Position numbers and translations under genes: made by a program
Shown here: piece after piece, positions 24,601 through 54,253 of the stretch
How positions within the stretch are numbered: position 1 is the stretch's first letter
Layout: every line of letters starts with the position of its first letter
DNA from: Macrotis lagotis
Taxonomy: Eukaryota > Chordata > Mammalia > Peramelemorphia > Peramelidae
Direction: 5' to 3'
DNA length: 64,000 bases
NCBI RefSeq assembly: GCF_037893015.1
Contig: NC_133665.1
Coordinates: 197,010,714 to 197,074,713, forward strand
Notes under the pieces: generated by a model
The model's input: only the letters and a program-made list of their open reading frames with translations
Databases searched by the model: none
What the model was told of the DNA's origin: nothing

Positions 24601-27600
24601 AAACCACACACAATTTAGCAAGCACTTGGTTGATGGGGATGGTCTTTCTTCAAAGAGTCAAAACCCTACTTCTATCTCCCATTCCTCTCCTACTCTCCAT
24701 AAAAGTCCTGTTTTAAGATCCCTCTCTTTATAAAATCCCCCAATCTTTGAGCAGATTTTGGAACCATTTAAAGCTCAATTCTCTGAGCTCAGAATATCCT
24801 GCAGCAGTGCCCCATCCCCTTTCCCCTCCAAGACCTTTTCTCCAGGGACCCTAGGGTGTTCACCCAGATAGGGAGATCAGAGCCAAGGCACATATCTTCA
24901 GAAGAGGAAAAAGGAGGGTCTCTGAGCAGGATATATTACTTGGCCATGTCCAATTTCCTTCTGTTCCTCAGCACTAAATTTAATTTGCATAGCCTAAGAA
25001 TGTGGAGGAAACTCTTCCCCAGAGAGCAGGAGCTGGCATCTTTTTTAGCCTTGCCCAAGCTGCCATTTTCTTTCCCATTCATCTTCAGTCTAATTTCTCT
25101 TTCCCTTCCTTTATCTATGGAGACATGATGAATAGGGTCCTGCAGCATAAACCGCTGTCTCATGGATGTCAGGGACTGACTCAGTTTAATATCAGTTCAT
25201 TTAGAAGAAAAGCAATTCTCTCAGCCACAAATTAACATCTGTCTCCATCTCAGCAGCACCTGGCTCAGGGTTTCTGTTTGAAATGAGAAAAATCTCTGCA
25301 GATCCATGGGACACATGGCTTTATCTCTCTTCCTATAGAATTGAGAGTTATTCTCATTATTCTCCCAGGGGAAATAAATAAAAACAATGATAATGTAGGA
25401 GAGTGTGCATTGTTTGATGGGATGAAGCTAGGTTAGCCTGAACTTCCTCACATCTGCCTCAGAGGCAGGCTGGCTGTTCAGTGGTATTATTCAATAGGCT
25501 AAAACATCACCAGTGCTGGGGTTGATGGATGGTTTTATCCCCCAGCCAGGAAGGTGGCTACAAAGGTCACCCCCACACTCCTCTCACAAGGCTGCCTCCA
25601 TGCCTCAGTCTTCTAGAACCCTAGGTCCCTACTAGTCTAGACTAGGTACTGGGGGCTTCAGTGATAGCTTATGGGCTTCAGAGAGTAGCTGAACAAGTCC
25701 TTGGCCAGCAGACCAAAGAGAAGGCCCAGTCCTAGAAGCTTGTGGAGTTCTGACTGGCCCCTGATTCATTCTCCCAGGAAGATGATCTCCTTAATCACCT
25801 GTATCCTGTTTCATTCTTATCTCCATAGTCCAAGCCCAGAGAAGTATTGCAGGAGCTTTTCCTGATGGATACTGGGGTTAACTGAATTGTTTAACTTGGA
25901 CATAGAAATAAAAGGGTTAATTGTGATATCATAGCCCTTAGCTTTGTGTGGAAAGAAGTCCCAGAAGAGAATTACTAACATAAGCATGTTTTGTAAACTG
26001 ACCACAGTATGACTATCTGCTCAGAGAAAGCATAACCTTGCACCATTATCTCCAAGGCCCCTTGCTTTCGTGAGCCTCTGGGGTATTTGGCTAAGGTCCA
26101 AAATCTTTGAAAGCATTCCCCTCTCCACCCATAATCAGAAGCAACTATCTTAAACTCCTTTTTTTCCTTTGACTCCTCGAATTTACATGTAATAAACACT
26201 GACTGAAACAGGGGTCTATGTGAGATCTCTCACAATCATCCACTAACCAGCACAGGATCCCTAGAACCTTTCTGGGTCCCTTCCCTCAATAGCACCCTAC
26301 AGGGTCAGAATGGTTCTGTGAGAGGACAAAGAGCCAGATCTGGAGTCCCAAAGACCTAGGTTGGAATCAGTGTCAGAGACTGACCAGTGGAGTTTTACTC
26401 TTCCCTCTCAGTCTCAGTTTCCTCCTCCACAAGTCACACAATTCTGACTTGCTGATCCCACATCAATACATAGATGATCAAATGGGAAAGTCATGTTTAA
26501 AGTACACTCAGATCTGGCACATAATATATGCTTAATAAAACTATCTGAATCAAATTAAATTAAATGATCTAAGAATCAATTGGTTTCTTTGAGTTTGAAG
26601 TTCAGTGTAATTCAGCTCTATTTAGGCCCCTTTTAAAGGCTAATGTTTTCTCCTGGGTGCTACATTTTAGAAAGGAAGTGGACAGACTAGGGCTTGGAGA
26701 CCAGGGTAGGACAACAATACCACAAAAGGATGAGTTGAAGAAATTGGGAAGGTGAAGCCTGAAGAAGGGAAAGCTCTGGTGGGATATGGCAGTCATCTTC
26801 AGGGATTTGATGAAGGGCAGGATAAGGAAGAAGATATCCATTTTTCTGCCTGACCCCAGGGTGACAAACATAGAACAATGACTGCAGGCTTTTGTGGCAA
26901 ATTTGAGCTCAATATGGAGAAAGACTTATTAACATTTGGGAATTCCCTTAAGATTTAGGGACTGCCCCAATAAATTTATTGTCACTTGGTCATCTCTGTC
27001 CCAAACCAAGGTTTAGGGATGCCTTGCTGAAGGTTAGAGAGATGATGGTTGAGGTCTCTCCCATGGAGATCTCATCCATCCCAAATATTTCCTATGCACC
27101 TATTATGTGCATAGACCTGTCCAGTCTGGAGGAGTTTGCAATCTAGGAGGTATCTGTGCCCTGCTCATGCCAAGGTGGTGCCAGTCCAGGGGGTCATGGA
27201 GATCAGGGAGGCATGGCCCAATCTCAAAAAGCACAGTTCTGACTAGGTGCCTGCCTATCATTAAGGTAGAGGACTTGTCCCAGAGAAAAATACAGTGCCC
27301 CTTGTCTGCAATGGGAAGAGAAAGCCTTTCCTGATTGTTCCTGCCCTTATGGACATTTCAGATCCCTTTGGCAACCTATTGAATGGAAGAAGACTATCCT
27401 CACTGACAACAGTGCCCTTAATTGAGGGACTTTCAGAGTGAGCCAAATCCCACGGTCCACCCCACAGATGAGCTGGCTTTGTAATTCCTTACTCCTGGTG
27501 TAATTTCCCTTTTATCCTTCCTCCTGGAGAGGACAGGACCATCTCTTTCAAGTTTTTTATCCTTGAACTGCCCAATCCTGAGTGTGAGGAAACTGCCCTG

Positions 27601-27924
27601 GGATGGGGCTGGAGAGAGAGAGTCAGCTCTGGGTCCAGTCATTTCTATGACACTTTCTCTCCTTAGCATGTTCCAGGTGTGCTCCTGAGTGAATGCCAGT
27701 TTCTGCAGTGGCAAATTAAACCTGCTCCATAATGTATTCTCTGAAGCTTCATGATTCTCTTAGCAGAGCAGTAAGGATTCAGGTGGGGCTCCAGGGTGGG
27801 TGGTTTAGGAGGGGACAGAATTTCCAGGGAATGTTTCTTCCCCTGATTTCCCTGCCTGCAGCATTGCTGCCTGTCCTCATTGCCCACTCAGGTCCTCTTT
27901 GTCCTGTCCTACCTCTATTTTATT
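24601..27924. other. Intergenic, one MIR, no gene seen
   Basis: Holds the MIR at 26,300-26,550 and a MIR-like phrase near 27,090 (CACCTATTATGTGCATAGAC). No exon with family resemblance. Confidence 0.45.
26300..26550 (+). mobile_element. MIR SINE
   Basis: GAGTCCCAAAGACCTAGGTT, CAGTCTCAGTTTCCTCCTCC and GGCACATAATATATGCTTAA are MIR head, core and tail. Confidence 0.65.
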
Positions 27925-28830
27925 CATGTCAGCAGAGATATAATATTTCCTCCAATAACTGCTCTGGCTGTATCCCACAAGTTCTGGTGTGTTGTCTTCT
28001 TATTGCCATTGTCCTGGGTGGTTATTATTTCTATTATTTGTTGTTTGATCTACTCATTTTTTAAAATGAAGTTACTTTCCAACAAATTTTAGGTCCATTT
28101 CTCCATGACCCTTTATTTCTTGTTTTTTATTATCTCATGATTTGAAAAGAATGCATTCAATATTTTTGCCTTTCTGCATTTGATTATGAGGTTTTTTTGC
28201 CCTAATACATGGTCAATTTTTTTGTATAGATGCCCATTACCACTAAGAAAAAAGTATATTCCTTTCTATCCTCATTTAATTTTCTCCAGAGGTCTATCAT
28301 AGCTAGCTTTTCTAACATCCTATTTTCCTCCTTAACTTCCATCTTGTTTATTTTTTTGGTGAGATTTATCTATTTCTGAGAGAGGGAGGTTGAGGTCCAG
28401 TGTTTTTGCTGTCTTTGTCTTCATGTAATTCATTTACTTTCTCCTCTAACAATCTGGATGCTGTATCCCCTGGTCCATGCATGTTTAGTATTGAAATGAC
28501 TTCATTGTGTCTGGTACCTTTTAGGAGGATGTAGTTTCCTTCTTTATCCCTTTGGATGAAATCTATTTTTATAATTGCTTTGTCTGAGAGAAGGATGGCT
28601 ACCCCTGAGTTTTTTCACTTCAGCCAAGTAGAGTATATATTGTGTTCTAATCCTTAACCTTTTCTCTAGGTGTATCTTTATGCTTCAGATGTGTTTCTTG
28701 TAAGCCCCATATTGTAGGATTCTGGTTTTTAAATACACTCTGCTCTCTGTTTCTGTTTTATGGGAGGGTTCATCTCATCCACATTCACAGTAATAATTAC
28801 TCTTTATTACCTTCCATACCATCTCCCCTC
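27925..28830 (-). mobile_element. L1 fragment, ORF2 5' part (endonuclease region)
   Basis: Read on the minus strand, this conceptually gives L1 ORF2 strings in order: NVDEMNPPIK, PTIWGLQETHLKHKDTP, GVAILLSDK, IDFIQRDKEGNYILLKG, ISILNMHGPG and KNTGPQPPSLRNR. These match the N-terminal endonuclease part of mammalian L1 ORF2, with stops and frameshifts. The 3' half of the L1 is absent on the low-coordinate side, which is unusual because L1 copies normally lose the 5' end. Confidence 0.8.
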
Positions 28831-29160
28831 TGCTTGTATTCGTTTTCCCTCCCACCCTATCCCTCCTCACTAGTGCTTTGTTTCTGAATACACCTCCCTC
28901 AATCTGTCCCCCCATCAGCCCCCCTTTTCTTCCTTTTTTCTCTTCTTCCTTTCCTTCCCCTCCTATTACTTGAAGGGCGCCAAATCCATGAGAGTGAGGT
29001 TCCAACAGCTCTCAGCCCGTCCCTCCTTTCCTCCGCTGCACTCGGGCCTTGTGTAATGCATCCCATTCTGCCTCCCCTTTCCTCCAGTCTCATTATAATC
29101 CCCCTTTTTATTGCCTTAAGTTTTCAAAAAAGCCATTCCATCAAAATCCACTCCTATCTC
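28831..29160 (-). mobile_element. Probable L1 sequence upstream of ORF2
   Basis: C/T-rich sequence contiguous with the L1 ORF2 start. Its position fits the L1 region before ORF2 (inter-ORF or ORF1) read antisense, but I cannot translate a recognisable ORF1 protein. The call depends on contiguity. Confidence 0.45.
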
Positions 29161-29572
29161 TGCTTCCATCATTCCGTCTGGCAGTGAGGACTCGAGGGGG
29201 TTGGGGTTTCCTCCCCGAGGGGGCCCGTGGCATCTTTTCGTGGCCTTAGTCTGCTCTTTCTCCTTTCCTGGTGCTCCAGTCTCCCGCGGAAGGCCGGGTG
29301 TTTCGGTCACACAAGTCTGAAACTCTCATTCAGGGCCATGGGGGGCCTGCCGGGCCCTGTGTGGGGCTGCTGGGGTGGGGGGGGGGGCCGGGCGACCCGG
29401 GGCTGCTTGTTCCACCAAGGGGATAGTTTACGTTTTTACTAGTTTTCGTTCTTTTTTAGTTGTGTGGACAAACCCGGGCCTCCCGAGGGCCGTTCTAGGC
29501 CTCAGGCCCATTGCTGGGGGTGGGGGGGAGGCCCCTCCAAGGCGTCGGGTCAGACCAGCTTTTAACGGCGCA
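29160..29572. other. GC-rich left flank of the minisatellite
   Basis: CpG-rich sequence with a G11 run near 29,377-29,388 that joins the L1-like block on its left to the 14-bp array. Its first part may be L1 5' sequence read antisense; the rest is not recognised. No supported coding region. Confidence 0.5.
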
Positions 29573-32500
29573 GCCCCTGGGGCTCCGCTCCTGGGGCTCC
29601 GCTCCTGGGGCTCCCCTCCTGGGGCTCCGCTCCTGGGGCTCCGCTCCTGGGGCTCCCCCGCTGGGGCTCCGCTCCTGGGGCTCCCCTCCTGGGGCTCCGC
29701 TCCTGGGGCTCCCCCGCTGGGGTTCCGCTCCTGGGGCTCCCCCGCTGGGGCTCCGCTCCTGGGGCTCCCCCCCGGGGCTCCCCCCCTGGGGCTCCGCTCC
29801 TGGGGCTCCCCCGCTGGGGCTCCGCTCCTGGGGCTCCCCCGCTGGGGCTCCCCTCCTGGGGCTCCGCTCCTGGGGCTCCCCCGCTGGGGCTCCGCACCTG
29901 GGGCTCCCCCGCTGGGGCTCCGCTCCTGGGGCTCCCCTCCTGGGGCTCCGCTCCTGGGGCTCCCCCGCTGGGGCTCCGCTCCTGGGGCTCCCCCCCTGGG
30001 GCTCCCCCGCTGGGGCTCCGCTCCTGGGGCTCCCCCGCTGGGGCTCCGCTCCTGGGGCTCCCCTCCTGGGGCTCCGCTCCTGGGGCTCCGCTCCTGGGGC
30101 TCCCCCGCTGGGGCTCCGCTCCTGGGGCTCCCCTCCTGGGGCTCCCCCGCTGGGGCTCCGCTCCTGGGGCTCCCCCGCTGGGGCTCCGCTCCTGGGGCTC
30201 CCCCCCTGGGGCTCCCCCCCTGGGGCTCCGCTCCTGGGGCTCCGCTCCTGGGGCTCCCCCGCTGGGGCTCCGCTCCTGGGGCTCCGCTCCTGGGGCTCCC
30301 CCGCTGGGGCTCCCCCGCTGGGGCTCCGCTCCTGGGGCTCCCCCGCTGGGGCTCCGCTCCTGGGGCTCCCCCCCGGGGCTCCCCCCGCTGGGGCTCCCCT
30401 CCTGGGGCTCCGCTCCTGGGGCTCCCCCGCTGGGGCTCCCCCGCTGGGGCTCCGCTCCTGGGGCTCCCCCGCTGGGGCTCCGCTCCTGGGGCTCCCCCCC
30501 TGGGGTTCCCCCGCTGGGGCTCCGCTCCTGGGGCTCCTCTCCTGGGGCTCCCCCGCTGGGGCTCCGCTCCTGGGGCTCCCCTCCTGGGGCTCCGCTCCTG
30601 GGGCTCCGCTCCTGGGGCTCCCCCGCTGGGGTTCCGCTCCTGGGGCTCCCCCGCTGGGGCTCCGCTCCTGGGGCTCCCCCCCGGGGCTCCCCCCCCTGGG
30701 GCTCCGCTCCTGGGGCTCCCCCGCTGGGGCTCCGCTCCTGGGGCTCCCCCGCTGGGGCTCCCCTCCTGGGGCTCCGCTCCTGGGGCTCCCCCGCTGGGGC
30801 TCCGCTCCTGGGGCTCCCCCGCTGGGGCTCCGCTCCTGGGGCTCCCCTCCTGGGGCTCCGCTCCTGGGGCTCCCCCGCTGGGGCTCCGCTCCTGGGGCTC
30901 CCCCCCTGGGGCTCCCCCGCTGGGGCTCCGCTCCTGGGGCTCCCCCGCTGGGGCTCCGCTCCTGGGGCTCCCCTCCTGGGGCTCCGCTCCTGGGGCTCCC
31001 CCGCTGGGGCTCCGCTCCTGGGGCTCCCCTCCTGGGGCTCCCCCGCTGGGGCTCCGCTCCTGGGGCTCCCCCGCTGGGGCTCCGCTCCTGGGGCTCCCCC
31101 CCTGGGGCTCCCCCCCTGGGGCTCCGCTCCTGGGGCTCCGCTCCTGGGGCTCCCCCGCTGGGGCTCCGCTCCTGGGGCTCCGCTCCTGGGGCTCCCCCGC
31201 TGGGGCTCCCCCGCTGGGGCTCCGCTCCTGGGGCTCCCCCGCTGGGGCTCCGCTCCTGGGGCTCCCCCCCGGGGCTCCCCCCGCTGGGGCTCCCCTCCTG
31301 GGGCTCCGCTCCTGGGGCTCCCCCGCTGGGGCTCCCCCGCTGGGGCTCCGCTCCTGGGGCTCCCCCGCTGGGGCTCCGCTCCTGGGGCTCCCCCCCTGGG
31401 GTTCCCCCGCTGGGGCTCCGCTCCTGGGGCTCCGCTCCTGGGGCTCCCCCGCTGGGGCTCCGCTCCTGTGGCTCCCCCGCTGGGGCTCCGCTCCTGGGGC
31501 TCCCCCCCGGGGCTCCCCCCGCTGGGGCTCCCCTCCTGGGGCTCCGCTCCTGGGGCTCCCCCGCTGGGGCTCCCCCGCTGGGGCTCCGCTCCTGGGGCTC
31601 CCCCGCTGGGGCTCCGCTCCTGGGGCTCCGCTCCTGGGGCTCCCCCCCTGGGGCTCCCCCGCTGGGGCTCCGCTCCTGGGGCTCCGCTCCTGGGGCTCCC
31701 CCGCTGGGGCTCCGCTCCTGGGGCTCCCCCCCTGGGGCTCCCCCCGGGGCTCCCCCCGCTGGGGCTCCGCTCCTGGGGCTCCCCCGCTGGGGCTCCGCTC
31801 CTGGGGCTCCCCCGCTGGGGCTCCGCTCCTGGGGCTCCGCTCCTGGGGCTCCCCCGCTGGGGCTCCGCTCCTGGGGCTCCCCTCCTGGGGCTCCGCTCCT
31901 GGGGCTCCGCTCCTGGGGCTCCCCCGCTGGGGCTCCGCTCCTGGGGCTCCCCCGCTGGGGCTCCGCTCCTGGGGCTCCCCCCCTGGGGCTCCCCCGCTGG
32001 GGCTCCGCTCCTGGGGCTCCCCCGCTGGGGCTCCGCTCCTGGGGCTCCCTCCCTGGGGCTCCCCCCCTGGGGCTCCGCTCCTGGGGCTCCGCTCCTGGGG
32101 CTCCCCCGCTGGGGCTCCGCTCCTGGGGCTCCCCCCCTGGGCTCCCCCCGCTGGGGCTCCCCCGCTGGGGCTCCCTTCCTGGGGCTCCGCTCCTGGGGCT
32201 CCCCCCCGGGGCTCCCCCCCGGGGCTCCCCTCCTGGGGCTCCGCTCCTGGGGCTCTCCCGCTGGGGCTCCGCTCCTGGGGCTCCCCTCCTGGGGCTCCGC
32301 TCCTGGGGCTCCGCTCCTGGGGCTCCCCTCCTGGGGCTCCGCTCCTGGGGCTCCCCCGCTGGGGCTCCGCTCCTGGGGCTCCGCTCCTGGGGCTCCCCCC
32401 CGGGGCTCCCCCCCGGGGCTCCCCTCCTGGGGCTCCGCTCCTGGGGCTCTCCCGCTGGGGCTCCGCTCCTGGGGCTCCCCTCCTGGGGCTCCGCTCCTGG

Positions 32501-32950
32501 GGCTCCGCTCCTGGGGCTCCCCTCCTGGGGCTCCGCTCCTGGGGCTCCCCCGCTGGGGCTCCGCTCCTGGGGCTCCGCTCCTGGGGCTCCCCCGCTGGGG
32601 CTCCGCTCCTGGGGCTCCGCTCCTGGGGCTCCCCCGCTGGGGCTCCGCTCCTGGGGCTCCCCTCCTGGGGCTCCGCTCCTGGGGCTCCGCTCCTGGGGCT
32701 CCCCCGCTGGGGCTCCGCTCCTGGGGCTCCCCTCCTGGGGCTCCGCTCCTGGGGCTCCGCTCCTGGGGCTCCCCCGCTGGGGCTCCGCTCCTGGGGCTCC
32801 GCTCCTGGGGCTCCCCCGCTGGGGCTCCGCTCCTGGGGCTCCCCTCCTGGGGCTCCGCTCCTGGGGCTCCCCTCCTGGGGCTCCCCCGCTGGGGCTCCGC
32901 TCCTGGGGCTCCCCCGCTGGGGCTCCGCTCCTGGGGCTCCGCTCCTGGGC
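29573..32950. repeat. 14-bp GC-rich minisatellite (about 240 units)
   Basis: Tandem array of a 14-bp unit with four main variants on the plus strand: GGGGCTCCGCTCCT, GGGGCTCCCCCGCT, GGGGCTCCCCTCCT and GGGGCTCCCCCCCT. There are rare 13- and 15-bp units and rare GGGGTTCC variants. The length of ~3.38 kb divided by 14 gives about 240 units. Scanning by eye, the plus strand holds one adenine in the whole array (near 29,896). All stop codons contain A, and all begin with T on the other strand, so all six frames are open. The long Gly/Ala/Pro/Leu/Arg/Ser/Trp and Pro/Arg/Ser/Gly/Glu/Gln frames are artefacts. Many units carry a CpG. GGGG runs every 14 bases could form long-loop quadruplexes. Confidence 0.97.
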
Positions 32951-33480
32951 CCGGGCAGCGCCGCGTCCTGGGGGCGGCGGGGGCGCCAGTGCGCAGCCGC
33001 AGCAGCGAGCCCGCGCCCAGGCCCCCCCGCCCCCCGGCCTCCCCAGGCGCCCCCACCCCACCCCGGCCCGGGTAGGGCCCCACGCGGAGGCGGCCACTGC
33101 CCAGCCAGGTGCCAGGCCCCCGCCGCCTTCCGAGCCTGGGGTGGGCTGCCCTGGCGGGGCCTGTTTGCCCGGGGCCCGGGGTGGGGCACCTCAGGCCCAG
33201 TGGGGCTCCCCTGCCCCGGGCGGGGCGCGAGTGGGGCGAGGGGGAGCGGGCAGGGACCGCCCCAGGAGGAGCTCTGTGGGAGCCGAGCCAGGGCTGCCCG
33301 GGCCCTGTAGAAAGGGCCCCCAGAACCGCGGGGGTCGGGTCGTGTCCCGGAGCTCAGGAGCCAGCCTCGCGCCCCCAGAGCCTGGTTCCTGGTCCCACAC
33401 GGTCTGGGCCCCGTATTCAGTCGCTGCGACCCTCGGGGGGATCCCCGAGTTCAGTGGAGCCGAGCCATCCTGACAAAGAC
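32951..33480. promoter_or_regulatory. CpG-rich unique flank right of the minisatellite
   Basis: About 530 bp of non-tandem, very CpG-rich DNA with several GC boxes. It would qualify as a CpG island even without the array beside it. No TATA box, exon or known promoter was recognised. It may be an orphan CpG island, an L1 5' UTR remnant, or seed sequence from which the array grew. Confidence 0.45.
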
Positions 33481-33614
33481 GCAGACGCCCAAGATCTGGG
33501 CAAATGCAGATTGGAAGAAACAAAGGGCACACCTTTCTCTGCCCAGGCACTCCCTAATTCTTCCCTCTTCACCTCTGAAGAAGCCTCTTGATTTCAACCT
33601 CTCATGCTATCCTT

Positions 33615-33773
33615 TTTTCTTTTTTTTGGGTTTTGGCAAGGCAATGTGCTCAGTGACTTGCCCAAGGCCACGCAGCTAGGTCATTATTAAATGTCTGAGG
33701 TCACATTTGAACTCAGGTCCTCCTGACTCCAGGACTGCTTGCTCTATCCACTGCGTCCCCCAGCTGCCCCTCT
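33615..33773 (-). mobile_element. WSINE1-like SINE with target-site duplication
   Basis: Antisense copy (GGCAAGGCAATGTGCTCAGT through GCTGCCCC) inserted at the edge of the CpG-rich flank of the minisatellite. Flanks CTCATGCTATCCTT (33,601-33,614) and CTCCTGCTATTCTT (33,774-33,787) match at 12 of 14 bases. Confidence 0.75.
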
Positions 33774-35610
33774 CTCCTGCTATTCTTAAGGAAAGATTCA
33801 GAACTGAGACCTAGACAATAGGGTAGTGAAGGGATTGCAAAGCTGGTTGGACGTGCAAGCCCAAAGAATGGTTAGTCTCAATTCAGTTCCATAGCAATAT
33901 CTCACATGGAGAGCTCCGAGGATCTGGGATGGACCTCTCTGTGCTGGTCAATTTTTTCAACAAGGACTGTGAGGAAGAATTCAAAGATAGAACAAACCTG
34001 GGAAAGCTGACAAACACCCTGAATAAGAGAGTCAGGACCCAAAGAACTTTTGACAGCTAGAGTAAGTGTGGGGCTAAATCTAATGAAGGGAAATGGAAGG
34101 CAGTTAAACATGTCATGGGAATTCGAAAAACTTATGAGGATTTAAAATTTTGCTTTACTGGATCTTATTATTTGGAACTTAAGGCTTTTCTCCTGAAAGT
34201 TTTGGTTAGCTGAAAGTCCATCATCTGTTAATATTAAACTCACTTGGCTAAAACCTGACTGATATAATGACAGAATTAAGGGAAGAATTTTTTACATTCC
34301 TCAGATAAGAAACAAAAGGGGAATTTGAACTTCTCAAAAATAGTTTGGTATTTGTAGAGCTAACTGTATGTCTTCACTTTCAGTCAACCTATTTAGAATC
34401 CCATAAGTGAAGTTAAATATGTAACCTGACTTAATTTACCTATAGAGTCTGCTTAACTAGATTTATATCCTCAGGGGCTATATAATATGATTTTGTTTAA
34501 CTAAATGTTTTCAACTTTTATGACATTGAAGCAAGCATGTGATTATAAATCTGTCTTTTTAACAGATAAAATGACAATATGTAAAAGAATTATTCTGTGT
34601 CTCTCTGACATAGTTTTGTCTATTAAAAACCTCCCTGATTTTTATGTAGGATTATTTTTCTGAATCGTGAACCTGTGCTTACATACAATAAACCCTAGGT
34701 TTTTAACATCTATAATTTCTTAATTGTGGTAGATTTATTTCTACCACAGTAACATATCACACAAAGTCAGAGGAAATGTTTCTCCCAAAACAAAGGTAAA
34801 GCTATCCCTTGAATTCAGAAATTAACTTTATGTGAACAAGACCAGGAGGCATTAGCCATTGGAAACACATCTGACCATATAGGTCCCCAGAATATCATCA
34901 TGGCCAATCTTACAGAGCATTGTATCTAATATCACTACCAAATGATGCCTTGTCCTAGGAGAGCTGGTATGCTGGATTTACCTTTTAGTCCCACCATTAA
35001 ACATGGACTTGAATAAGATTCACCGAGAGGAGGGTGAATAGGAAGGTAAGGGACCTAGGGATCATTTGAGGATTGGTGGAAGAAACTGGTCCAGTCTAGG
35101 GGGAAAAAAAAAACAACCTAGAGTCAAGGAACAAGGGGGACTGTATTTGAATGATTGTCATGGAGTCAAGGGTCTACATTTTATTTGGCCCAAGAGAACA
35201 ATAGTACATTTTTGCCAAAGGCAAAGTTTGACTTGATTTCAGGGGGAATGAAACCCTCCAATCAATCAGGTATTTAATAGATGCATGTTGCTTGATTGGA
35301 ATGGGCTACCTTGAAGGCAGTGAATTGTATCTTCAGCAGTTTGGATCTGATGGTTCCTGAAATCCCATCCATCTCTGAGCTTCTGGGGAACCATATGCAA
35401 ACAGCTTTAACCAAAATCTCTATACAGTCTGTCTTACACTGAGTGAGAGCTGTGTATTATAGTTAGGCTTTCTAGGGTCCATACTGATTGACCTAAGTCT
35501 CTGACCCTCCCTCAGACCCCTGGCCACTGAAACTTTCTGCCCCAGGTTTGTTTCTGTCTCTGTCTGCTTCTCTGTTTTACTGTCTCTCTTCTCTTGGTCT
35601 CTGTCTGTGA

Positions 35611-35652
35611 CTGTCTCTCTCTCTCTCTCTCGCTCGCTCGCTCTCTCTCTCT

Positions 35653-35722
<70 letters not shown>
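35611..35722. repeat. (CT)n microsatellite with CGCT interruptions
   Basis: About 110 bp of CT with three clusters of CGCTCGCT, so the array carries periodic CpGs. Confidence 0.95.
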
Positions 35723-35723
<1 letters not shown>

Positions 35724-36498
35724 CTTTCCTCCTCTCTTTTCCTCCTCACCCAAGAAGTGTTCTAACCAGGCTCTCTAAACACCTGCAGCTATGACCAATA
35801 CCTTCCAGAGAAATGGAGCTTGCTCACTCTCATGATCATATCCACCCTGTGTTAAGCGTGTGGAACAGTCCTTTGTGGCTAGGGAGATCTGAATCCAGGC
35901 AATGACTTCATTGTGGTAGAAAGGTAGGAAACAGTAACTGGTGTGATGAAAAATTTCTATGACTTTGTTATCATAAAATGTGACAGAAACACGTCAGAAC
36001 CTCCCATCCATTCAGACTCCAAAAAAGAGAATTCTGTTTCTAGTATTTCTAGAAGAGTCAGGATCTGACCTTCTCTCAAGGTCTCTCAATTATCTTTCCC
36101 CCTTCTAAATTCAGAGGGGAAGAAAAATCCAATCCCCCCCTAGCTACCAGTCTGTTTGGAGAAAATGAGATTAGATTAGCTCACCCTAGGATTTAACCTA
36201 GACTGAAACTCCCAGCTCCACATGACATCCTTTCTCTGCAAAGCTAAAAACTTAAAAATGCCAAATAGGAGTCCTGAAAAGTTCTAAGCCCCTCAGCAAT
36301 TTGTTGCTGTTCAAGCCAAGAGCTAGCTTTAATGGACTGTAAGTGATCCATTATCCTCAGGTTGACCTTGTCTCTTTCAGGCAAAAGCACACATTCAGAA
36401 TACAGTTTAAACCATCTGATCTTTATCTAGCAAGTCACTTAGAAGTGTAAAGAACCTGCAAGAACCTTTCAGGAGCAAAGCAACCCTCAGTGCCTCAT

Positions 36499-36516
36499 CC
36501 CCCCCCCCCCCCCCCA
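36499..36516. repeat. Poly-C run
   Basis: About 18 consecutive C on the plus strand; length may be unreliable in the assembly. Confidence 0.8.
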
Positions 36517-37069
36517 TCACACTGAGCAGACAAAAGGGAGAAGCAGATGGTGGTTCCAATTTGTGTCGTCTCCGAGCAGCCAGAGTTCACTCTGCTTCTG
36601 AATTCTAGCCCTAATTCTGAGCTGGCTCTGAGCCAGCTACAAGCTGCAAAGTTGCCTGCCTCTCTGCTGCTACCTGATGCCTTCTCCTTCTCACTCCTAC
36701 CGTTCTCTCATGTTCTTTCCCTCTGATCACTTAAAAAATTTCTGCCATTGTGTTAAGTTCTGCCTTTTTATCTAAATACTGTGCTAATCCCTTTGTCCAG
36801 CTGGGAAGAAATACATCTCTCCTATCCTCCCATCCTGTCCTCAAGTGGGGTTGGCCTTACTTAATAGGATAGACAGAATAAAGAAATGGACAGAAAGACA
36901 ACATTGGAATAGATCTGACCTGGATAGAAGTCCCACCTTTAATCAAGTCACTCTCAGTGCCCCAGGAGACCCTCTAAGACTGTGGGCACTAAAGAGATGG
37001 GGCAATTTCCCTACCTTTGTGTGAAATCACAGGTTTGAGCCAATCTGCACACAAGCAAGGTCTTTTAAA

Positions 37070-50198: not shown

Positions 50199-52777
50199 TG
50201 AGTCTGCATAAAAGATAGGGAACCTTATGGCTGCTCTAATTAATTGCTATAGCAACTTGAAACCATTTGCTTTACTTGGCAAATGAGATGGGGACCCTAG
50301 CCAGCACCCACAGTCAGTCTGGGGAGCCAGGCAATGCCAGGGCAAGAAGGGACCCTCAAGGACAGAATATGGCCTGGAATAGGATCCATTATTTTTGTTC
50401 GAACACTGATTGTTAACTGTACCTTTCAAACAGACATGGGCACAGTCCTTCAGGGAGACAAAGTTGTTTTCATTTCCGCCACAGCCGGTGTAGGTAAAGG
50501 ACTCACAGATTTTTCTTTTCCAGTTAAAATAGTATCGGGTCACATTTGCTGAACAAGACCCCTCATCTAGTGGACTGTAGCAGAATTGGGGAACTTTTGG
50601 AAAGAAAGAAAAAAGCTCAGTTAGAAGATTCTTGACAGAGCTGAGTCAACCAAGCCTCAGAGGGGTGATGACAAAATGTAACTTAGAATTGTGACTGAAG
50701 CTGTGAAATTCAGGGATGAATCGCCTGCTGGGGTGGAACCTTAGGGAAGGAAGCCTCAGCCATTAGAGGAGAATGCTCCTTGCAAGTGGTTCCACTCATC
50801 CAGTCTTCTCTACCCACAGAGAGAATAGGTACGACTATGTTAAAGTCTGCAGCTCAAGGGCTCAAAGCAGTGAGGATGGCACACCCTTGGGCAATGGAAG
50901 GGGTCACAGCAAGGAAATCTGGACAACAACTCAATTCTGCCTGGAGCACTGGTAAAGTAAGAATCTGCCTTACTTTTCACGGGAGCACAGAAGTTGTTGC
51001 ATGTGTGGGCATCTGGGAATTGGTTTCGATTGCCACGCCCTCCACGGACTACCAGCCTCTCACAGGCCATGGAGCTGAGGTTGAAGAAATATTGCTCCCC
51101 GGCTTCTCCCAAGTCAGCTCCACTGGCTTCCAGTCTGCAGATCTTGGGAACTCCTAGGAAGGGGAAATGGAAGCAACAGCCCGAGGGGTCCCAGCCCTTT
51201 CAGACACCATCTCACCTAATGCTCACAAGAAATGGGACAGACTGGTCCTCTTATTACACCCACTGCCCAGAGGGAACAGGTTCTGGCTCCGTGAGTCCAT
51301 AAGCCCTGAGACAGCAATAACTATATAAACGTATGTGTGGAAATTTGGTGATAGAAAAGGGCAGAAGGACATCCTGCCTTTGAGGAGCTTCCATGCCCAT
51401 AACTAATAGCTAGGTACAGCCAACGTACACAGGAGGAGGGAATGGTGGTCATCTCAGAAGGAGATGATGGGAGAGTGGGAAGGGTTAGAAATGGATCCAG
51501 GGTTTAAGGAGAGGTTTGTGAAGCAGGTAGAATTCTCTATGAATCTGGAAAGCCATCAGGGAAACCAGAAGGAGGAGGTGAGGAGGACAGCCAGTGAAAG
51601 TGCCCAGAGCTGCAAGAGTCCGGAAAACCTAGGGGAAGGAGAGACTCTAGAAGAGGGTGATCAACAGTGCCAGAGGCTGCAGAGGAGTCACACAAGCCCC
51701 CCTAACTCCAGGGCATTCTGGGCTGGGTTCCCTCCAAAAGAGGAAAGAGTTATCCTAGGATACTCATTCCAAATCACTTTGGAAGGCCTCAGCCAGACCT
51801 AGGGGGTCTATGCCTTGCCTCTGGAAAGGCCTCAGTCACTCTGATCTGGTTTTCTTTTGAACAAAGTCGGGGCTCTGTCAAGTGATTCGTCCTGGGTCAG
51901 GGCTAACACAAGTCTCTGTGGCTCTTTCCCCGGGGCCACAAGGGCCACAAGGAGTGATCCTCTTGGGAGGAGTAAGGATTTCCAGTTCTCCAGAAGTAAA
52001 TGGTCGTTTTAAGTCGTGGACCAAGGCTACAAGGATTAAAATGAGTCGGTTCAGAGAAGCTTCCAGGGCAGCCCCGTGGGGTTGATGGTGACTCACTAGG
52101 CAAAAGGAGTTTATCCAAGGGAAGGAAATCCCCACGGGTCTGGGAGTGCTGAAATCTGGGAGCAGTCCCTCTGCACGCCTGGTGGGGGGCAGGGCAGGTG
52201 GGGTGAGATCTGGGGCACCCCCCTCTCCTGAGCCAAGTTTGGGGGCGGGGACACTGGGGGGCAGTGGGGGGGGCTGAGTGAATACACCAGATCTGAGGTG
52301 CTGGGGGTGTCGGGCGCCGGGAGAGGCCAGAGGCCGGCGCCCCCCGCCCCGAGCTCCCGCTTACTGGGGATCCAGCCGCAGGTCTGCTCGCAGTCCTCCG
52401 GGGTGTCGAAGTTGTTGTCGTTGCCCCCGCAGCCCCCGAAGATGAAGAGGCGGCAGCTCTGCAGGTGGCGGTCGTAGTAGAAGCTGGGCAGGCGGGCGCG
52501 GCAGGGGCCGTCATCGGGGGGCAGCAGGCAGCGTGCGGGGGGCACGCCGGGGGCTAGCGGGGAGAAGAGGGTGCTGAGGGGCTGGGGCGCCAGCGGGGGG
52601 AGGGGTCAGAGGAGGAGACGGGGGGAGGCCGGGAAGTGGGGGGAAGATGAGAGGTGGGGGGCGGGGGAAGGGAAGGGAGGGGTCCCCCCAGGCGCTGTGG
52701 TCCTTACCTGCGGACAGAGGACTCCCGAGAGCCCGGCTCTGCCCGGCGGCCCACAGCAGCAGCAGGAACCCGAGCAT
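49740..52777 (-). CDS. TFPI2: TFPI2, tissue factor pathway inhibitor 2 (five coding exons, complete)
   Basis: TFPI2 is a secreted, matrix-bound Kunitz-type serine protease inhibitor; in the human protein the first Kunitz module blocks plasmin, trypsin, factor VIIa/tissue factor and related enzymes. Coding exons read on the minus strand: 52708-52777, 52365-52553, 50974-51153, 50423-50593 and 49740-49819. All four introns have GT-AG ends and are phase 1, as usual for Kunitz modules. The lengths sum to 690 nt, giving 229 aa plus stop (human about 235). Order: signal peptide (about 1-18), Kunitz 1 (C32-C82), Kunitz 2 (C92-C142), Kunitz 3 (C151-C201), lysine/arginine-rich tail (204-229). Family-specific strings match the human protein as I remember it: [34 protein letters not shown]. 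Sequons at N111 (NLS) and N163 (NVT) are kept. Kunitz 2 lacks the second and fourth cysteines (see findings). The ATG has G at -3 and follows a TATA-like box. The exon model was built by hand from splice signals and homology. Confidence 0.95.
50150..50195. repeat. (CA)n microsatellite in TFPI2 intron 4
   Basis: About 23 CA units between exons 4 and 5 of TFPI2, roughly 230 bp beyond the exon 4 donor. Confidence 0.95.
50423..50593 (-). CDS. TFPI2: TFPI2 coding exon 4: Kunitz domain 3
   Basis: Residues 147-204. Six cysteines are present (C151, C160, C176, C184, C197, C201) with normal spacing. The residue after C160 is serine (GSCSAN), as in human Kunitz 3, which is not a strong inhibitor. The N163-V-T sequon is kept. 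The acceptor is CCAAAAG|TTC. The donor GAAAG|GTACAG is weaker than the other three but yields the right phase into the basic tail. Confidence 0.92.
50974..51153 (-). CDS. TFPI2: TFPI2 coding exon 3: degenerate Kunitz domain 2
   Basis: Residues 87-146. It aligns with human Kunitz 2 through [15 protein letters not shown] and FCAP. Only four of six cysteines are present: C92, C117, C138 and C142. The position of the second cysteine falls in a one-residue-shorter segment ([10 protein letters not shown]), and the fourth cysteine is R126 (CGT) in GGRGNRNQF. These two normally pair with each other (BPTI 14-38). Splice sites are intact: acceptor CCTAG|GAG and donor GAAAA|GTAAGG. Confidence 0.92.
52365..52553 (-). 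CDS. TFPI2: TFPI2 coding exon 2: Kunitz domain 1
   Basis: Residues 24-87. The six cysteines C32, C41, C57, C65, C78 and C82 have the canonical spacing 8-15-7-12-3. R42, directly after C41, is the P1 residue, as in human TFPI2 (GPCRA), so this module should still be an active trypsin/plasmin-type inhibitor. The acceptor is CTAG|CC and the donor CCCCA|GTAAGC. The codon split across the next intron gives Arg87. Confidence 0.92.
52708..52777 (-). CDS. TFPI2: TFPI2 coding exon 1: start codon and signal peptide
   Basis: Encodes [20 protein letters not shown] and three more residues, then the first base of codon 24. The leucine-rich core is a typical secretory signal, with likely cleavage after ALG. 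The exon ends at a strong donor (CAG|GTAAGG). The start fits a Kozak context (GCC before ATG, G at -3) and lies 60 bases downstream of a TATA-like box. An open frame continues past the donor into the intron, but the homology stops at the splice site. Confidence 0.9.
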
Positions 52778-52905
52778 GGCGAGCGCGGCCGGCTTTCCAG
52801 GGGACCAGGCTCCGGGTGCGGGTCGGAGGGGCCCCGATTTATGGGGGAGCGAGCGGACCCGCCCCGGGGCGGGGCTAGGGTGGGGCCGTCTGAGATCTCA
52901 GCCGC
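52778..52905 (-). promoter_or_regulatory. TFPI2: TFPI2 core promoter
   Basis: On the minus strand, CATAAAT (plus positions 52837-52843) is a TATA-like element about 60 bases before the ATG, so the transcription start is probably near 52,810 with a short 5' UTR. Just upstream are GC boxes of Sp1 type (CCCCGCCCC and GGGGCGGG around 52,860-52,876). The start site is inferred, not seen. Confidence 0.6.
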
Positions 52906-53984
52906 CGCGGGGGGCAGGGGGGAGCCTCGGAGACCCTGGGAAGCGTGGGGGGCACCCACCGCGCCTCCGCATCCCGGGCAGCTGCCCGGCTCTCCCGGGG
53001 CTCGGCGCTGGCGGGGGCGGCTCCGGGCGGGGCGTCTGGGGGGGGGGGGGCGGACTCTTGTTTGTTTGCGTCCATCCTCGAGACCCCCACGGACGCCCCC
53101 CCAGTAGCAGCTCTGAGGCTCTGGATTGGGGGGTCCAGCGCCCCTCCGCGTCCCCTCTCCGGCCGAGGGGCGCCTCCCAGTCCGGCCCCGCGATGGCTCG
53201 TGGCCCCTTGGGGGCTCCAGATCCTCTCCGGGGGCCTAACAAGCTGCCGAGGTCCCGGGAGATCGGGGCGGCCTCCGAGCGGCCTCGAGGATGCTTAAGG
53301 GGACCCAGCGGCGTGGAGGCCCCCCGAAAGTGCGGGCGGCGCCAGCGGCCGACCCCCGCAGCTCAGGCTGGAAGCTGGTTCCGGGGTCCCCGGGAGCCTC
53401 ACGCTGCCCCCCACCCTGTCATTCCAGCTTCTCGGACCCAGCAGGGCCGGGGCCGCCCCGGCGCAGCCCGCTCTGTGGCCCTCTCTTCGGGGGGCGGCTT
53501 GCAGAGCTGGGCGGGACCCCCAGAGGCGAAGCCCTTCCCGGGCCAGCCCGTCCCGCAGGACCGCTCGGTGGCCGCGTCACCTGGCGCGGCTCGGGGGGCG
53601 GGACCCCCCTGTTGTTACCAGGCCCGAGACGCGGACTCACATAGAGCCCGCGACCCCCCGCGCCTCTCAGGGCCCACGGGCTCGTGCCTCACCCCCGCCC
53701 GCGCCCCACTCGGGGCTTCTCCCCTTTCCCTGCATGTGCCCCAGCTTCTCAGGCGTGACCACTCTGAGCATCCTGAGGCCCGTCCTGCCGGACCGCGGCC
53801 AGCGATGGGCCCACGGGAGGAGGCGGGGAGGAGAGACCTGCCCTCCGGGCGGGCTGGAAGGCCCGGGGGCCCTGTGGCAAGAAATCGGACGGTGGGTGAG
53901 AAGTTTGGGGAAACAAGCGGAAACGGGAGGCGCAGACTCATTCAGCCTTTCGTTAGCCAGATGTAGTCCACCTCCAGAGGGAAG

Positions 53985-54098
53985 GCTGGGGGCGCTGGGT
54001 GGCACAGCCCCGGAGGCAGAAGTTCAAATGCGGCCTCAGACAAGAATTCCCTAGCTGTGTGGCCTTGGGAAAGTCCTTTATCCTTAAAATTTTTTTTT
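53985..54098 (+). mobile_element. WSINE1/MAR-type SINE, 5' part
   Basis: GGGGGCGCTGGGTGGCACAG, AGAAGTTCAAATGCGGCCTC and GCTGTGTGGCCTTGGGAAAG, then a T/A-rich run. Inserted at the edge of the TFPI2 CpG island, it gained CpG-containing variants. Confidence 0.65.
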
Positions 54099-54253
54099 AA
54101 AAAAGGAAGGGAGGCCTCTGGCAAAGACTGCTTGCACAGCTCTGATCCTATGCACTATAGAATTTTCCCTATGCAAGGCAGAGCTGCTTGAGCCATAAAA
54201 TTTCTAGAAGCAATGCCACAGAACAACATTTACATACATGACACATAGTATTT

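Follow-up and report, generated by a model that had tools for sequence, protein, structure and literature searches.

A nearly adenine-free 14-bp tandem array in Macrotis lagotis, very probably an ordinary GC-rich minisatellite

A window of 64,000 nucleotides from the genome of Macrotis lagotis (assembly GCF_037893015.1, contig NC_133665.1, positions 197,010,714 to 197,074,713 of the forward strand) contains a 3.4-kb tandem array, one strand of which is almost devoid of adenine. This array is very probably an ordinary GC-rich non-coding minisatellite, presumably a locus of the VNTR type, a class defined by length polymorphism between individuals, and neither a gene nor a new kind of element. 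It consists of about 240 head-to-tail copies of a 14-bp unit, within the 10-100 bp range of minisatellite units, and it contains interspersed variant units and the traces of turnover by block duplication, in the form of 0.9-kb and 194-bp copies. The sequence-only reading that had drawn attention to the tract was correct in what it observed but over-read it. The missing adenine is one fact about one 14-bp word and not about 3,384 independent bases. The features of the array and of its surroundings are collected in Table 1.

Table 1. Features recognised in the window, with positions counted from its first nucleotide
Feature	Position	Strand	Basis or remarks
Left GC-rich flank	28,970-29,575	.	58% GC, CpG o/e 0.51
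14-bp GC-rich minisatellite (very probable), about 240 units	29,576-32,949	.	TRF, cyclic parse
Block of about 0.9 kb, copy 1	29,577-30,513	.	Self-alignment of units and of bases; contains the only A
Sole A of the tract	29,896	+	Base count; lies in unit CTGGGGCTCCGCAC
Block of about 0.9 kb, copy 2	30,514-31,423	.	Offset 896-910; self-alignment, exact matches
194-bp block, tandem duplication	32,177-32,593	.	Exact 223 bp, 32,177-32,399 = 32,371-32,593, lag 194
Right GC-rich flank	32,950-33,500	.	78% GC, CpG o/e 0.61
SINE-like element	33,608-33,801		11 further matches within the window at 70.6-80.3% identity
Putative TFPI2-like gene	50,430-52,777	-	Kunitz matches, exon order
Last Kunitz exon, domain	50,430-50,582	-	Best PDB match TFPI, 2.4e-25
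Degenerate-looking middle exon	about 50,974-51,153	-	By eye only; departs from the scripted Kunitz cysteine pattern
First Kunitz exon, domain	52,378-52,530	-	Pfam PF00014, E 4.1e-20
Signal-peptide-like exon	about 52,708-52,777	-	
CpG island, about 1.9 kb	52,201-54,100		Spans the first exons (5' end) of the TFPI2-like gene

Base composition, units and reading frames

The base count of the tract from 29,573 to 32,956 gave 1 A, 1,603 C, 1,157 G and 623 T over 3,384 bases, in agreement with the single A in about 3,380 bases that had been noted by eye. On either side of this A, the tract is free of adenine over 323 bp (29,573-29,895) and 3,060 bp (29,897-32,956). The next longest adenine-free run of the window measures 137 bp (35,611-35,747) and overlaps a CT array in which CTCGCTCG steps are interspersed.

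The array was reported by TRF with periods of 28, 42 and 70, each a multiple of 14, and with 88-89% matches. Its 3,374 bp include 1,597 C and 1,153 G, and its GC content reaches 81.5%. A cyclic parse divided it into 242 pieces, among them two edge fragments and one fused pair, which leads to the estimate of about 240 units; this count, like the block duplications described below, could be wrong if the array is partly a product of the assembly. Four main unit types, none of which contains an A, account for 218 of the 242 pieces, namely CTGGGGCTCCGCTC (111 pieces), CTGGGGCTCCCCCG (64), CTGGGGCTCCCCTC (23) and CTGGGGCTCCCCCC (20). When up to two mismatches were allowed, CTGGGGCTCCGCTC was found 162 times in the window, always between 29,577 and 32,944, whereas shuffled sequences gave 0.54 occurrences on average, and the window holds a single 3.4-kb array of this unit.

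The tract is nearly devoid of A because its 14-bp unit happens to have none. In the GC-rich flanks, 18.8% of 1,180 14-mers are likewise without A. The strict strand bias had been described as unusual, a judgement that is not supported, since the bias is fixed by the 14-bp unit and a three-letter strand has a precedent in the human minisatellite CEB25.

The insulin-gene VNTR, with its GC-rich unit of 14-15 bp carrying G runs, resembles the present array in its unit but differs in its location, as it lies in a gene promoter, whereas about 17.5 kb separate the end of the array from the last Kunitz exon of the nearest recognised gene, the TFPI2-like one. The consensus of the G-rich strand of CEB25, as given in Table 1 of PMC3486850, is 52 bp long, contains no C and has a GC bias of 100%; one base is therefore missing from one strand in both cases, C there and A here. 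On the other hand, the CEB25 unit is 52 bp long with 56% GC and forms a stable G-quadruplex (G4) in vitro, whereas no canonical G4 is found on the GGGG strand of the present array. According to the available excerpts, the HRAS1 (28-bp) and CEB1 (39-bp) arrays are also built of tandem GC-rich units of 10-100 bp, and the CEB1 alleles of the yeast study are likewise of kilobase size. Their motifs have GC contents of 68% and 77%, respectively, compared with 81.5% for the present array, which further differs in its 14-bp unit and in the 10-nt spacing of its GGGG runs, the strand of these runs being rich in C as well. In the excerpts available on marsupial minisatellites, GC-rich VNTRs and variant-repeat arrays the locus was not found, although it may still have been described, and the available text of PMC12776774 has no content on marsupials or GC content. 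An exact search of viral contigs with a 24-base pattern of the array gave no match.

No stop codon occurs inside the tract in any of the six frames, and the stop-to-stop frames that cross it extend over 1,169-1,340 codons. This bears out the earlier description of a tract open in all six frames, with several overlapping frames of more than 1,000 codons. The reason then offered is right for the plus strand, on which a stop codon requires an A, but wrong for the minus strand, for which it was argued that stop codons start with T. Since no stop codon lacks either A or T, a stop on either strand can occur only where the plus strand has an A; the six frames are open because A is missing from the tract.

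These frames could be taken as a sign that the array encodes a long repetitive protein in one of them, but this has next to no probability and was rejected, as starts were lacking, the stretches compared with Pfam and the PDB gave no match and the frames are explained by composition. The 14-bp unit is not a multiple of three, as a protein repeat would call for, and the frames of one strand consequently share a cyclic family of 14-amino-acid peptides. Neither strand of the tract contains an ATG. From stop to stop, five of the six frames contain no methionine, while the only one of the sixth frame (minus strand) lies at 29,511, beyond the tract, and no upstream ATG reads into the array in any of the six frames. 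In addition, the plus strand contains no AG within the tract and thus no splice acceptor. Six stretches of 400 amino acids, one per frame and covering about the first 1.2 kb of the tract, had no match in Pfam, and one stretch of 300 amino acids had none in the PDB. The giant open frames carry no function, and the tract cautions against taking stop-free frames in base-depleted repeats for genes.

Block duplications and growth of the array

Self-alignment of the array gave a best score of 121.5, compared with maxima of 36.0 for 150 shuffles of the units and 68.5 for 150 simulations under a first-order Markov model. When the two copies of the 0.9-kb block were aligned base by base, 892 identities were observed together with three substitutions, one of which sits at an ambiguous gap placement, and 57 gap columns, interpreted as one single-base gap and four gaps of 14 bases. 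The longest exact match covers 461 bp (30,077-30,537 = 30,973-31,433, lag 896) and another covers 193 bp (29,897-30,089 = 30,807-30,999, lag 910). Moreover, two rare variants are common to both copies, CTGGGGTTCCGCTC at 29,717 and 30,626 and CTGGGGTTCCCCCG at 30,500 and 31,396. The base aligned in the second copy with the A at 29,896 is a T, and this A therefore most simply postdates the block duplication. The autocorrelation of unit identity over lags reached at best 0.519, within the shuffles (mean 0.438, maximum 0.630), which was attributed to the short overlaps at large lags.

The proposal of the sequence-only reading that the strand bias reflects very recent amplification or strong homogenisation is backed, in a more specific form, by the array's internal exact repeats (461 and 223 bp). 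They support an amplification mode in which blocks of 14 to about 64 units are copied. In such a history, an A-free stretch of 14 bp within the locally GC-rich segment of about 4.5 kb would have been duplicated in tandem, and the array would then have grown as whole blocks were copied, including one of some 64 units (about 0.9 kb) and one of 14 units (194 bp). The copying may have proceeded by unequal exchange, by slippage during replication or by conversion, the origin of the unit from a local 14-mer is plausible, and the amplification was presumably recent. Block copying would spread the existing A-free units faster than point mutation adds A, so that the tract would stay nearly A-free. The map of variant units offers a ready marker of repeat turnover.

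Short reads, on the other hand, cannot be placed within exact repeats of this length (461 and 223 bp), and the array could in part be an assembly artefact, that is a collapsed, expanded or chimeric repeat. This explanation is unlikely. Rare unit variants are interspersed from 29,717 to 32,441, which makes a wholly false array improbable, even if its length may still be wrong.

DNA structure, mutation spectrum and flanks of the array

GGGG is present in nearly every unit, with runs 10 nt apart. Over the 3,374 bp of the array, no start of a canonical G4 was found on the plus strand, which carries the GGGG runs, and 16 were found on the minus strand, while a long-loop pattern with loops of up to 12 nt gave 469 starts on the plus strand. 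G4Hunter, run as an in-house script, gave maxima of 0.72 (plus) and 1.68 (minus) and means near 0 on both strands. No excess folding was observed in one 140-nt sample per strand; with z scores of +2.01 and +2.22 the samples folded worse than shuffles, 199 and 198 of 200 of which folded at least as well. The GGGG runs had been suspected of stalling polymerases. Stalling is possible but not indicated, given the lack of a canonical G4 on the plus strand, the lack of excess folding and the spacing of the runs.

A related explanation holds the array for a structural or fragile site in which a G-quadruplex or a hairpin drives expansion, as in CEB1 and CEB25, and this has to be considered doubtful. 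On the plus strand, the GGGG of nearly all units and the 469 long-loop starts point in this direction, but canonical G4 are absent and the G4Hunter maximum stays at 0.72. On the minus strand, the 16 canonical starts and a maximum of 1.68 also speak for it; nevertheless, the means are near 0 and the 140-nt samples of both strands fold worse than shuffles. The yeast precedents also point both ways. In the available text of PMC5491262, instability of CEB25 variants is caused by short-loop G4 only, while CEB1 is unstable without a consensus G4 motif, and in the available text of PMC3486850 the HRAS1 motif forms no stable G4 in vitro and yet raises rearrangements 20-fold. A short-loop G4 motif of the CEB1/CEB25 type was not found in the 14-bp unit, which lowers the case for a structural site and does not close it, as CEB1 lacks the full consensus.

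Of the 24 odd pieces, 13 were left out of the tally of rare changes, being length variants of the C run or the T site or else fused or edge pieces (nine starting with CGGGG, the 27-nt fused pair, one CTGGGCTCCCCCCG and the two edge fragments), and the remaining 11 were merged by hand into eight events. These hand-deduplicated events comprise five C>T, two G>T and one T>A, with the reservation that the event at 30,528 could be a C>T from another unit type and not a G>T, and that two units with TT after GGGG could represent one event. The array contains 198 CpGs (CpG o/e 0.36), and none of the five transitions falls on a CpG, with P = 0.007 or 0.047 if CpGs mutate at 10 or 5 times the rate, values that are post hoc and drawn from few events. 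At G:C pairs, all seven strand-informative changes produce a T on the plus strand (P = 0.013 if the two strands were equivalent, post hoc), and the five transitions alone give P = 0.074 on the same post hoc basis. Germline hypomethylation and strand asymmetry are hinted at by these counts, neither being proved.

Another explanation, and a very improbable one, sees in the array and its GC-rich right flank a regulatory element close to the TFPI2-like gene that is hypomethylated in the germ line and may be a differentially methylated region. The lack of transitions at 198 CpGs would suit such an element, but there are just five events, the CpG o/e of the array is 0.36, and homogenisation alone could erase decayed CpGs. 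In the same way, TFPI2 (printed TFP12) and CALCR are named as imprinted at the human PEG10 locus in the available text of PMC3820666, but the TFPI2-like gene lies about 17.5 kb away, and that text gives no imprinting of TFPI2 in marsupials, in which PEG10 is imprinted, SGCE is only preferentially paternal and PPP1R9A is biallelic. In the available text of PMC11438212, TFPI2 is named only in the reference list. The fuller proposal, in which the array together with the CpG-rich stretch 32,950-33,500 would escape methylation in the germ line and regulate the TFPI2-like gene over a long range, possibly as a lineage-specific differentially methylated region made of tandem repeats, is a far-fetched one; what hints at it is that the five transitions fall on C positions other than CpGs and that the seven changes at G:C pairs all gain T on the plus strand. 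The minisatellite would gain in importance only through methylation or allele data linking it to this gene.

The GC-rich segment that encloses the array measures about 4.5 kb (28,970-33,500), and outside it GC amounts to 42% (27,000-28,969) and 41% (33,501-36,000). In the right flank, the 14-mer at 33,201 is one mismatch away from the rotated unit; it may be a relic or a seed of the array, or a chance match. A transposon origin of the flanks, judged by copies within the window, was considered and dropped. For the left flank (25,000-29,575), no further copy turned up at E 1e-4. A search with 32,950-37,000 gave, besides the matches of the SINE-like element, which fit a mammalian genome, one short pyrimidine-rich match and a self-match of the GC-rich flank in reverse complement that reaches the last units of the array. 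The stretch 27,000-28,969 is strongly depleted in CpG (2 CpGs in 1,970 bp, o/e 0.02), with a sharp switch at 28,970, and presumably resembles old LINE sequence. Rfam gave no RNA family at gathering score and no tRNA gene was found.

The putative TFPI2-like gene

The gene at 50.4-52.8 kb was named TFPI2-like on the basis of Pfam and PDB matches, of exon order and of the layout of the human TFPI2 protein, and the name is a provisional one. For its first Kunitz exon, the best PDB matches were the multi-domain inhibitors SmCI (3.4e-35), boophilin and TFPI, with TFPI2 in sixth position (1.3e-17), and for its last Kunitz exon TFPI2 was not among the best 60 PDB matches listed. The marsupial gene ELP (PMC3426482) was considered first for this locus. 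It was given up since ELP carries just one Kunitz domain, while here two Kunitz exons line up with a third exon of degenerate appearance.

The list of open reading frames contains 91 entries of at least 90 amino acids, of which two sets of 10 were compared with Pfam. One match, to the Kunitz domain, was obtained in the first set and none in the second, seven frames of which lie within 26.6-33.7 kb. At the 5' end of the TFPI2-like gene, the CpG island has 73% GC and an o/e of 0.66, as calculated over 52,200-54,050.
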